Positions 22,101-31,657 of a DNA stretch of 31,657 bases are shown here, in pieces. Origin of the DNA: a bacterium. GTDB lineage: Bacteria; DRYD01. The stretch is taken from assembly GCA_030549815.1 (NCBI GenBank), contig JAUQQQ010000011.1, positions 1 through 31,657 on the forward strand, given 5' to 3'. Position 1 is the first letter of the stretch. Every line of letters starts with the position of its first letter. The notes below the pieces were generated by a model. That model saw only the letters and a list, made by a program, of their open reading frames with translations. It did no database searches and was not told where the DNA came from. Position numbers and translations under genes: made by a program.

Positions 22101-22945
22101 ATGAGAGCTACGGTTGCCATACCAACTTATAATAGAATAGAAATATTCTTTAAAACCTTACCTTATTGGGAAAACCAAACTGTCAAAGATTTCGAGATAA
22201 TTGTTATTGATGATAATTCAACCGATGGAACTTATGAAATAATAAAGAATTATCGGGGTAATCTCAAGATAAATGTTATAAAGAACAATGTTAATAAAGG
22301 ATCTGCTGATGGTAGGAATAAAGGAGCTTTGTTTGCTAACTCTGATGTTATAATATATACTGATGATGATACATTCCCTACACCTGAATTTATCGAAATT
22401 CATTTGCAATACCATGAGAAATATAGGAATGCTATAGTTAGGGGACCAATAATTAACTTTAATGATTTAAAATTTTTGGATTTTTTTTTTCTGAAGATAG
22501 TATTTTAAAGAAAATAAGGAAAAATTGGGTTTTATACACTAAAGGATATTCGGGAAATTTTTTCTGCACTGCTAACGTTTCGGTAAGAAGAGACTTAGTG
22601 TTGAAGGCGGGTTTGTTTAATCTTGAATTCGAAAGGTGGCAGGATACTGAATTTGGATATAGATTAAGGAAACTTGGTGTCATTAGATTTTTTGATTTTA
22701 GAGCATGGGTACTGCATTATAAACAAGAATTCACTGATAAAGAAAAAATTATAAAACATTTTTATAAGGAAGGGAAATATGCTGCTAAGTTATTAAAATA
22801 TCATCCTCTTTTTAGTGTAAAATTAAGGACTGGGTTTTTCCCATTTTTCCCCTTGTGGAAAATTTTGTATAAGCATCAACTTAATTCTTCAAAAGGTGCC
22901 TATATAAAAGGATTTCTGGATGAGTATTTTAGTAAAGTGAAATAA
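22101..22945 (+). CDS. Family 2 glycosyltransferase, split by a frameshift at a T10 run
   Basis: The two halves are 22101-22508 (135 residues) and an open frame from about 22490 to 22945. The first half has ATVAIPTYNRIEIFFKTLPY, FEIIVIDDNSTDGTYE, NKGSADGRNKGA and the metal-binding TDDD in DVIIYTDDDTFP, a clear GT-A fold. The second continues SEDSILKKIRKNWVLYTKGYSGNFF, then VSVRRDLVLKAGLFN and FERWQDTEFGYRLRKLG, the acceptor-side block with the ED-like motif, ending in a His-bearing VLHYKQ. Together they make a normal enzyme of about 281 residues. The shift needs 11 or 8 T instead of 10, or a -1 slip. It may be a true pseudogene, phase-variable, rescued by transcriptional slippage, or a sequencing error. 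The start lies 4 nt after the GspF stop. Confidence 0.8.
22481..22490 (+). other. Homopolymer of ten T at the glycosyltransferase frameshift
   Basis: Codons read GAT TTT TTT TTT CTG in the upstream frame and TCT GAA GAT in the downstream one. One added T (or loss of two) would join the two halves. Such runs are prone to polymerase slippage in replication and transcription and to sequencing error. Confidence 0.75.
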
Positions 22946-28902: not shown

Positions 28903-29170
28903 TTTATAAAATTTAACAGAGATTAGTAAGAAATTTTCTGGTGGGAGATGAAGGGCTTACCTATATAATCGTAAGTAAGGATTTGAGGAAGATCATATCT
29001 ATTAGTTTCTGTATTTGTTTGCTTTACTAGTGGTAGATTGAGAAACTTTATAGGTGCTATTGTGGTAAAAAGTCCCAGAAACAAGAAATTTTGAAATATA
29101 AAGATTGTAGGTTATATAAAAAAAGAGGTTTGTTGGATGAAGAAGTTACCTATTGGAATAAGTAGTTTTG

Positions 29171-29186
29171 TGGGGTAGGGGTCCCC
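29171..29186 (+). repeat. G4/C4 palindromic element, copy 1
   Basis: TGGGGTAGGGGTCCCC lies between two copies of TTTTG (29166-29170, 29187-29191), like a 5-bp target duplication. Element plus one TTTTG is 21 nt. The insert brings a TAG stop into frame after residue 11 of the decayed gene. Confidence 0.7.
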
Positions 29187-29231
29187 TTTTGCAGAGATAA
29201 GGACAGGAGGATATTACTATGTAGAAAATTG

Positions 29232-29247
29232 GGGGACCCCTACCCCA
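29232..29247 (-). repeat. G4/C4 palindromic element, copy 2 (inverted)
   Basis: GGGGACCCCTACCCCA is the exact reverse complement of copy 1, 45 nt away. The family pattern VEKT is interrupted between VE and KT by 21 nt, read in frame as NWGTPTP, so the frame is kept. No clear target duplication remains. Confidence 0.7.
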
Positions 29248-29370
29248 AAGACATATTTTGTAAAAAAATTAGTATATGAAGAAGAATATTATTTTTTATC
29301 TCGTCCTTGACGTTTATTAGGTGTTCCGCAGGGAAAAGCTGGTTTGTTGATACCTTGCGATGTGCATTTG

Positions 29371-29387
29371 TGGGGTCAGGGGACCCC
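29371..29387 (+). repeat. G4/C4 palindromic element, copy 3 (diverged)
   Basis: TGGGGTCAGGGGACCCC folds as GGGGTC/GACCCC around a 4-nt loop. It lies just upstream of the LFKGLY block, after the segment where the P-loop has been lost. Confidence 0.6.
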
Positions 29388-29695
29388 TTAACAGGAAAAA
29401 AAATTATTTAAAGGATTGTATTTAGAAAACAATTGGAATTGGGAAGAGAAGTATCCGGTAGTAAGAGTATCATTTGACACAACATTTTCAAAAAGAGAAG
29501 AATTAGAAGAATTTATTGTATCAATTCAGGAAAAATATGCAAAAGAGTTCGAAGTAAAGTTAAATTCTAAGCATGTTGGCTTAAGGAACATTAATTTAAT
29601 AGAAGGGATATACCAGAAAACAGGAAGAAAAGTAGTGTTATTAATAGATGAATATGATAAACCTATATTGGACAATATAGAGAAAAGAGAGATAG

Positions 29696-29719
29696 CAGGG
29701 GTGGGGGCCCCTTCCCCTG
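29696..29719 (+). repeat. G4/C4 palindromic element, copy 4 (in-frame coding insert)
   Basis: The imperfect palindrome runs from CAGGGG to CCCCTG. It adds 21 nt, read GVGAPSP, between IEKREIA and EEIREVLKGFY, which would be continuous in family members. The frame is intact across it. Confidence 0.7.
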
Positions 29720-30078
29720 AGGAGATAAGGGAAGTATTGAAGGGTTTTTACCAAACGATAAAAGGTTTAGATCAGTATTTACGTTTTGTATTTATAACAG
29801 GAATAAGTAAATTTGCCAAGGTGTCGTTGTTTTCAGGATTAAATCAGTTAAATGATATAAGTTTGAATAGGGAATAAGGGGATATATGTGGATATACAGA
29901 GGAAGAATTGTTGAAAGTATTTGGAGGTTTGATAAAGGGAGATAAGGAGTTAGAGGAGATAAGAGAATGGTATGATGGATATTGGTGGTTAGGAAGTAAG
30001 ATATATAATCCTTTTGATGTGTTGTTATATTTACAAAACAGGGAAAGTGAAAGTTATTGGTTTGAAACAGGTAATCCA

Positions 30079-30100
30079 GGGGAGGGGGGCCCCTACCCCA
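30079..30100 (+). repeat. G4/C4 palindromic element, copy 5 (frameshifting insert)
   Basis: Arms GGGGAGGGGG and CCCCTACCCC around one G, plus a final A: 22 nt between the codons of YWFETGNP and EFLVKLIRENN. The extra base moves the downstream nuclease domain to the next frame. One G fewer in the run of six would restore it. Confidence 0.75.
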
Positions 30101-30876
30101 GAGTTTTTAGTAAAGCTAATAAGGGAAAATAATTACTATATACCATTGGTGGAGGAGATTGTGTTAAGAAAGGAGATGTTAGATTGGTTTGATGTGGAAG
30201 ACATAATGATAGAGGTTTTAATGTATCAGACGGGATATTTAACAATAAAAAAAGTAGAGCAAAAAGGAGATATAAAAGAGGTAGTGTTGAGTTATCCAAA
30301 TAAAGAGGTAAGAACAGCATTAAATTTGTATATAAGCAGAAAGATAGAAAAGGGATCATATAGGTGGATAAAAGAAATAAGAGAAGTATTTGAAAGAGGA
30401 GAAATAGAGAAAATAGAGGAATTGATGAACAAAGTGCTGTTGTCTATACCATATGTATGGTATAAGGATACAAGTAGATATGAGAGTTTTTATTGTGCAT
30501 TGTTTTATGTATTGTTAGTGTCAAGCGGATTAGAAGTAATAGCAGAAGATGTGACAAGTATAGGGAGAATAGATTTAACGGTGATAAATAGGGGGAAAGT
30601 GTATATAATAGAGTTAAAGGTAGATAAGGAAGGAGCAATAGAACAAATAAAAGAGAAGAGATATTATGAGAAGTATTTGGATAGAGAAGAAATATATTTG
30701 GTAGGAATAGTAATGGATAGTAAAGAAAGGAAAGTGAAAAAAATAGACATAGAAAGATATAAGTAGAGGTTTATGTATGCCAAATAGAATTTGAACCAGA
30801 AATTTTGAGATATATGCAGGAAAAAATAAAAAAAAAGTAGAAAATAAAAAAGTAAGAGAAAAAGGGGATGGTAAAA

Positions 30877-31657
30877 ATGAGAAAAAATATATTGATTTTA
30901 TTATTAGTAATAGTAGTAGTGATGATATTAATGATATTAGGTAGTGGTGGAAGTGTTAATGGTGAGAGTGGTGGTGGGAGTGTTGTAGGAAAAGTATCAA
31001 ACACATTTGGAAGTTCATTGGGAAGAGATATAGATGGAGATGGTGATAACGACAGTGGTGTTATTCTAAGCAACATTGCTGGTGATGGGAATGATTATGG
31101 TAATTCAATAGCAATAGATGGAAGTGGAAGAATTTATGTTACGGGAAGTAGTCGGAATGTTAATGGTAATGATGATGCATATGTAATAAGGTTAAATAAA
31201 GATGGGAGTATAGATAGTAGTTTTGGAAGTGGAGGTAAAGTTATTCTAAAAGACATTGCGGGTGTTGGTGATGATTATGGTAATTCAATAGCGATAGATG
31301 GAAGTGGAAAAATTTATGTTACTGGACAGAGTGGTAAGGTTTATAACTATAATGCATATGTAATAAGGTTAAATGTAGATGGGAGTATAGATAGTGGTTT
31401 TGGAATTAGAGGTAAAATTATTCTAAGCAACATTGTTGGTGGTGGGAATGATTATGGTAATTCAATAGCAATAGATGGAAGTGGAAGAATTTATGTTACG
31501 GGAAGTAGTCGGAATGTTAATGGTAATGATGATGCATATGTAATAAGGTTAAATAAAGATGGTAGTATGGATAGTGGTTTTGGAAGTAATTTGGGAAGAG
31601 ATATAAATGGAGATGGGAATACTAATGATACTGGTGTTATTCTAAACAACATTGCTA
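30877..31657 (+). CDS. Secreted delta-60 repeat protein (3' end beyond window)
   Basis: An open frame of 260 visible residues without a stop. A hydrophobic N-terminus (NILILLLVIVVVMILMILG) is a signal peptide or anchor, without a lipobox Cys. Then come Gly/Ser-rich sequence and repeats of about 60 residues reading VILSNIAG, DYGNSIAIDGSGRIYVTG, NDDAYVIRLNKDGSIDSSFG. This is the delta-60 pattern, thought to build beta-propeller-like surface proteins. The segment GRDIDGDGDNDSG and its later copy GRDINGDGNTNDTG resemble Ca-binding DxDxDG loops. The start is ATG 30877, 9 nt after AAGGGG; an in-frame ATG at 30868 touches that site. A surface or adhesion role is inferred. It follows the decayed AAA-ATPase gene by 110 nt. 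Confidence 0.8.
   Translation, partial: MRKNILILLLVIVVVMILMILGSGGSVNGESGGGSVVGKVSNTFGSSLGRDIDGDGDNDSGVILSNIAGDGNDYGNSIAIDGSGRIYVTGSSRNVNGNDDAYVIRLNKDGSIDSSFGSGGKVILKDIAGVGDDYGNSIAIDGSGKIYVTGQSGKVYNYNAYVIRLNVDGSIDSGFGIRGKIILSNIVGGGNDYGNSIAIDGSGRIYVTGSSRNVNGNDDAYVIRLNKDGSMDSGFGSNLGRDINGDGNTNDTGVILNNIA
31060..31657 (+). repeat. Tandem delta-60 units with a higher-order period
   Basis: Units start at 31060, 31240, 31417 and 31636 (steps of 180, 177 and 219 nt). Bases 31086-31205 of unit 1 and 31443-31562 of unit 3 are identical over 120 nt, while unit 2 differs more. A DxDGDG-bearing segment precedes units 1 and 4, giving a 576-nt super-repeat. Confidence 0.85.

Follow-up and report, generated by a model that had tools for sequence, protein, structure and literature searches.

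The window, by which is meant the whole stretch of DNA analysed (31,657 nt, about 30% GC), belongs to a genome of 1.59 Mb in 23 contigs, designated G000, from a poorly known group of bacteria without cultured members, and its genes, named from their translations (nusA, clpC, glyA, ftsY), read as those of a bacterial chromosome. A glycosyltransferase-like gene at 22101-22945 apparently lies in two frames (135 + 115 aa). The feature of main concern here is a decayed gene, copy C19, with an AAA-ATPase_like domain (PF09820) and a PDDEXK_9 nuclease domain (PF08011), Pfam matches that confirm the AAA-ATPase/PD-(D/E)XK identity assigned to it in an earlier, sequence-only reading of this DNA; the architecture is known as DUF1703 (PMC1913061). 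The gene is interrupted as follows, the inserts being delimited by DNA alignment with insert-free paralogs:

29137..30766, plus strand, decayed DUF1703-type gene, copy C19 (Pfam matches on two open pieces; reading frames)
29171..29191, plus strand, insert 1, 21 nt, TGGGGTAGGGGTCCCC plus TTTTG
29226..29246, minus strand, insert 2, 21 nt, whose complement is GGGGTAGGGGTCCCC
29316..29329, plus strand, insert 8, 14 nt, ATTAGGTGTTCCGC
29370..29390, plus strand, insert 3, 21 nt, GTGGGGTCAGGGGACCCCTTA
29698..29718, plus strand, insert 4, 21 nt, GGGGTGGGGGCCCCTTCCCCT (alignment and fold)
30079..30100, plus strand, insert 5, 22 nt, GGGGAGGGGGGCCCCTACCCCA

Lipoprotein-like genes with repeated units of the form 'RDIDGDGDND ... 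GKIYVTG' are often found downstream of DUF1703 copies, both in G000 and in a genome of the sister genus (G004); one occupies 30771-31657 of the window, and others follow the paralogs L058, L325, and L195.

The five GC-rich near-palindromes all lie at the coordinates given for them by the sequence-only reading, and a regular-expression scan for GGGG...CCCC blocks returned these five and no others in the window, where that reading had noticed none elsewhere. Its reduction of the blocks to arms GGGGTAGGGG and CCCCTACCCC around one base was too simple, since a perfect GGGGTAGGGG-N-CCCCTACCCC is not seen in any of them. One of the four GC runs is lacking in each of blocks 1-3; blocks 4-5 have all four, with changes. 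Matches to GGGGTAGGGG with at most two mismatches number 16 in the window against 8.0 +/- 2.7 in shuffles, and the exact matches all fall inside the five blocks. The suggested size of about 7 codons agrees with the net insertion of 21 nt seen at blocks 1-4 when C19 is aligned with insert-free paralogs of the same genome; block 5 adds 22 nt in C19, and its extra G is a later frameshift, because the versions in paralogs C5k and C3b have 21 nt.

The individual inserts differ in detail. TTTTG flanks TGGGGTAGGGGTCCCC on both sides, so that insert 1 has the look of a 16-nt element plus a target duplication of 5 bp; its site is also filled in C3b, C12, C5m, C5k, and C5e, and the insert presents an in-frame TAG in three copies, including C19, and CAG in three paralogs. 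Insert 2 is the same element in the opposite orientation, placed within a YYYVDKT motif, at a site also filled in C3b, C5m, and C5k, while the site of insert 3 is also filled in C5k. Insert 4 has four GC runs and two nested stems, and insert 5, likewise with four GC runs, has CCAG at each end. Among the sites of G000, repeats resembling target duplications are clear only at site 1 (TTTTG) and site 5 (CCAG). Insert 8 is frame-shifting and not GC-palindromic, lies within the Walker A motif RPRRFGKS, and is common to four paralogs of different background; its relationship to the GC element is uncertain. The GC inserts of G000 are GC-rich palindromes within AT-rich DNA, and their single-strand folding is no better than that of shuffled sequence.

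Statements about whole genomes derive from pattern, family, and model searches. A PF09820 search of G000 gave 16 matches, corresponding to about 12 gene copies, several of them intact (507-553 codons), and the family makes up about 1.2% of the genome. DUF1703 proteins are amplified in several bacteria, and in Cardinium cCpun the paralogs recombine readily (PMC6387759); those of G000 are visibly mosaic. Of 12 copies that were aligned, seven carry GC inserts; the other five lack them at these sites. The claim that the blocks are confined to one decayed gene therefore holds for the window, where all five lie in C19, and fails for the genome, where six further paralogs on four other contigs carry inserts. 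Eight insertion sites (0-7) were recognized, each a precise insertion relative to insert-free paralogs and mostly of 21 nt: this is the net length at sites 1 to 6 (22 nt at site 5 in C19), with 19 nt at site 0 and 22 nt at site 7.

In G000 as a whole, 18 places carry GGGG(N)CCCC and none the reversed control pattern. A search for GGGGNAGGGGNCCCC with at most one mismatch gives 21 matches, distributed over 18 places, every one of them in a PF09820 copy, and a two-mismatch match at C3:94340 lies within a heavily decayed relic of a DUF1703 gene. The inserts occur in both orientations and in different frames. One paralog, C15a, holds its GC insert inside an intact frame of 525 aa and may be functional. 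The inserts also serve as recombination points: in another copy, at C5:108.8k, a deletion has brought sites 4 and 5 together, and an insert forms the junction. The sole related place outside the family is C6:84853, where three 21-nt tandem units (EGSPTPQ EEVPTPK EGAPTPE) stand at a gene end, the third sharing 17 of its 21 positions with insert 5 of C5k. That gene (L037:2335-3141) is membrane-protein-like, and a neighbouring paralog is without the repeat tail. Assembly error, which the sequence-only reading had named as a possible source of the blocks, was rejected, the same inserts recurring on five contigs with different flanks. CRISPR repeats were likewise rejected: there is no spacer pattern, and a tandem pair in the sister genus (G004 site i, below) is arranged head to tail.

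The genome of the sister genus, G004, carries an AT-rich element that is unrelated in sequence to the GC element and has the same double-hairpin shape, of the form CATATAAC-inner hairpin-TCGTTATA. It is inserted at six sites in several PF09820 copies, as 21 or 34-36 nt, with one site holding a 68-nt tandem. The outer stem TATAAC/GTTATA is nearly constant, and the inner stem varies by site and is still complementary: over six variants 98.3% of cells pair, there are 10 double changes, all four inner pairs have changed on both sides, and the covariation score was reached by none of 500 shuffles. Searching G004 with a covariance model gave 28 full-length matches and 10 short ones. Every one of them lies in a PF09820/PF08011 copy, four being at contig ends. 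In a further genome, G005, there are three matches, two in the DUF1703 family and one (C100:10977-11011; L287 near 1481) interrupting an HD-GYP-like gene, so named from its translation. Since this is the only copy of the AT element found outside the family, confinement to DUF1703 genes is strong and not absolute. Units in G004 and G005 measure 21-36 nt. Over the GC and AT elements together, the short repeats resembling target duplications comprise TTTTG, CCAG, and TATA.

Two side observations concern the arrangement of units in G004. At site i, six copies (L196-L202 range) have the head-to-tail pair (68 nt), whose two units differ in inner stem (CACA/TGTG and CGCA/TGCG), and L220 has a single unit. 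In the region of site iii, where the other copies have the 21-nt insert, L200 carries a different and longer insertion (about 57 nt), bounded by partial ATATAAC...TTCGTTATA sequences.

Searches farther afield gave little. The GC element was not found in six further genomes of the order, and GGGGNRGGGGNCCCC had no match in the same-genus relatives G001-G003, GGGG(N)CCCC occurring once each in G002 and G003, in other sequence. The GC 18-mer was not found in viral contigs, and a scan of these for the AT element gave, among the matches listed, unselective hits. The sequence-only reading had counted it against a mobile element should family members of unrelated species carry the same blocks at the same sites. 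This objection is not borne out: in the 79 best homologous loci of other organisms, a hairpin scan gave only three isolated weak palindromes. The negative is a weak one, since strict scoring left even the imperfect GC blocks of the window itself unflagged.

Comparison of inserts with their surroundings bears on how they spread. Among the G004 paralogs, inserts diverge by 0.6% and the flanks (60 nt on each side) by about 14%; at sites 1, 2, 3, and 6 of G000, inserts are 0-5% divergent as against 5-21% in the flanks. Judged by their flanks, the filled copies do not form a clade: often, and in several segments, a filled copy is closest to an empty one. C5e and C15a, for example, have an identical insert at site 6, where the surroundings of C5e are closer to those of the empty C14 than to those of C15a. 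The same site is thus filled in some homologs and empty in others, and inserts have spread independently of flank genealogy, as is typical of homing. Divergence within 6 nt of the insert is 0.051 among filled and 0.104 among empty copies, and at 12-24 nt it is 0.105 and 0.181, respectively; co-conversion of the flanks is weak. The sites fall in conserved motifs more often than in 20,000 random placements (p = 5e-5), the positions hit, marked here by a slash, being YV/DKT, RPRR/FGKS, SLF/SGLNQ, YNP/FDVL, and EW/YNGY, together with a position next to the EFK motif. This combination of motif preference and site sharing is what homing-like copying predicts and what random insertion into tolerant genes does not. 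The notion of a dispersed element caught in one gene, as in the sequence-only reading, is not supported in the face of near-complete confinement to one family, refilling of the same sites, and placement in conserved motifs, and with family confinement the question shifts from how the element jumps to why it does so only in the DUF1703 family.

What becomes of a filled gene can be gauged from reading frames, substitution ratios, and stop codons. Ten of 16 independent inserts are multiples of three (p = 0.016), and several frame-breaking ones also occur. In G004 the frames are open on both sides of frame-breaking inserts of 34 and 68 nt, dN/dS is 0.275 in filled and 0.228 in empty copies, and stops outside inserts are few. 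By a clock that takes the inserts to be unconstrained, an assumption rendered uncertain by the compensatory stems, the seven G004 copies have 2 such stops against 2.4 expected if dead since insertion, and G000, whose insert divergence is known only roughly, has 6 against 5.5 expected at 2% insert divergence, or 14 at 5%. Empty copies have hardly any. Because the stops match the prediction from insert divergence, recent arrival followed by death suffices for most copies, and most filled copies appear, on these counts, to have been dead since insertion. C19 and C5k, with five inserts in common, have a dN/dS of 0.078, a value that would fit more readily with a period in which inserts were tolerated.

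Taken together, these hairpins of 20-36 letters suggest a very small mobile element spreading between related genes. The reading we favour, at a probability somewhat below one half (about 0.45), is that of a non-autonomous micro-palindrome that may spread almost only within the DUF1703 family by homing-like copying. The element would be a double hairpin of 16-17 nt, joined where visible by a target duplication of 4-5 nt for a total of about 21 nt. A break or nick would arise in an insert-free paralog, at one of the conserved sites, the family's own putative PD-(D/E)XK nuclease being a candidate for making it; repair from a filled paralog would then copy the hairpin in with little co-conversion of flanks, new sites would be founded by rarer hairpin-mediated template switching, and most paralogs receiving the element would be inactivated. 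Weak flank co-conversion, the HD-GYP copy in G005, the unremarkable folding of the G000 inserts, and the low dN/dS between C19 and C5k count against homing-like copying, and heavy recombination among the paralogs can blur which copy received an insert. Searches for Y1 transposases (PF01797) and reverse transcriptases, in genomes 87-90% complete, gave no consistent candidate for a copying enzyme: for Y1 transposase there were two partial matches in G000 and none in G004 or G005, and a reverse transcriptase was seen in both G000 and G004 and was not found in G005.

A homing enzyme may not be required. Under insertion-biased gene conversion, the palindromic loop of a heteroduplex would fold into a hairpin and escape loop excision, allowing filled alleles to win, with new sites coming from rare hairpin-mediated template switching during paralog recombination. 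Such a process accounts for family confinement, same-site sharing, and palindromy without a transposase, and the mosaic G000 paralogs, the recombination published for Cardinium cCpun (PMC6387759), the somewhat lower near-flank divergence among filled than among empty copies, and the C5:108.8k deletion, with its junction insert joining sites 4 and 5, are all in its favour. It would have to operate through very short tracts, as flank divergence is back within tens of bases, and by itself it explains neither why conserved motifs are preferred nor why new sites, with repeats resembling target duplications, have been founded again and again; we consider it a close rival of homing-like copying, and rather unlikely. 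We judge improbable a reading in which some filled genes are functional, the inserts being homing micro-elements of 20-36 nt in conserved motifs that are removed from the mRNA like introns or skipped by the ribosome, with unrelated sequences taking the same role across genera. The compensatory inner stems of the AT double hairpin, the frames open around the 34- and 68-nt inserts, the similar dN/dS of filled (0.275) and empty (0.228) copies, and the 0.078 of C19 and C5k would suit it; yet filled copies gain stops outside their inserts at about the rate of dead genes, empty copies hardly do so, and the low dN/dS may date from the time before insertion.

Two further explanations look to more familiar kinds of repeat. 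Ordinary dispersed palindromic or MITE-like insertions might survive only where they are tolerated, and the DUF1703 family is redundant and partly decayed, the short repeats TTTTG, CCAG, and TATA fit a transposase, and one AT-element copy sits in an unrelated gene of G005. Genome-wide searches already disfavour this account, which we hold to be quite improbable: the eight GC sites of G000 and six AT sites of G004 all lie within 1-2% of the genome and none is intergenic, sites concentrate in conserved motifs, and paralogs have exact sites with near-identical inserts in common. That the GC element is instead an in-frame coding minisatellite (EGxPTPx), spread as peptide units and palindromic as a by-product of GGG/CCC codons, draws on the EGSPTPQ EEVPTPK EGAPTPE tail at C6:84853 (17/21 identity of unit 3 with insert 5 of C5k), the 21-nt length at six of the eight GC sites, and the intact 525-aa frame of C15a. 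It becomes highly improbable in view of the occurrence of both orientations and different frames and of the in-frame TAG of insert 1 in three copies, and it leaves the AT-rich element of the sister genus unaccounted for.

Homing elements are mobile introns and inteins. The inserts described here resemble them in that the same conserved sites are filled in homologs, the inserts are more alike than their flanks, and insertion occurs in conserved motifs; they differ in being far smaller and in encoding no endonuclease, and any removal of them from RNA or protein would be hypothetical. REPs are tied to Y1 transposases and are extragenic, whereas here all copies lie inside coding sequence, and no Y1 transposase was found in G004 or G005. 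Both are short palindromes present in many copies, of 20-40 bp in the case of REP/RAYT (PMC3733652). Rickettsia palindromic elements (RPEs) are also palindromic, multi-copy, and located inside reading frames, often in frame (PMC10969869). RPEs are about 150 bp long, occur in many unrelated genes, and have a conserved encoded peptide, whereas the present inserts occur in both orientations, and those of G000 (18 places) and G004 (38 matches) all fall in one family, with one exception in G005. The contrast in length noted in the sequence-only reading is borne out, at 21 nt in G000 and 21-36 nt per unit in G004 and G005 as against about 100-150 bp, and, unlike RPEs, the elements of the sister genera are unrelated in sequence.

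Two mitochondrial systems offer further parallels. The GC clusters of yeast, GC42 for example, are small GC-rich palindromes that lie between short direct repeats in AT-rich DNA, and they too have stems more conserved than synonymous sites and a mobility that is inferred, with the enzyme unproven (PMC4478555); they are mitochondrial and dispersed, and the present elements belong to a bacterial chromosome and keep to a single multigene family. The byps of Magnusiomyces capitatus mitochondria, at 81 positions, are similarly numerous short inserts that break the frames of otherwise open genes (reviewed in PMC5009743). Byps are bypassed in the translation of essential genes, whereas here only a single family is affected and ordinary stops accumulate in the filled copies. 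In its workings the element resembles the yeast mitochondrial GC clusters and, to a lesser degree, the RPEs.

Mobile palindromes inside genes are already known from Rickettsia and mitochondria. As judged from the sequences and against the open-access literature, what seems new is the way several traits come together: the elements are extremely short, they keep to one gene family, they prefer conserved motifs, and in sister genera two unrelated sequences share one architecture. One recombining family, with exact sites in common and two unrelated elements of one architecture, makes the mechanism testable, as homing, biased gene conversion, and RNA-level removal would each leave a different picture in strain polymorphism, flank haplotypes, and transcripts. 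Involvement of the family's own nuclease, if real, would also offer a first hint as to what DUF1703 proteins do.
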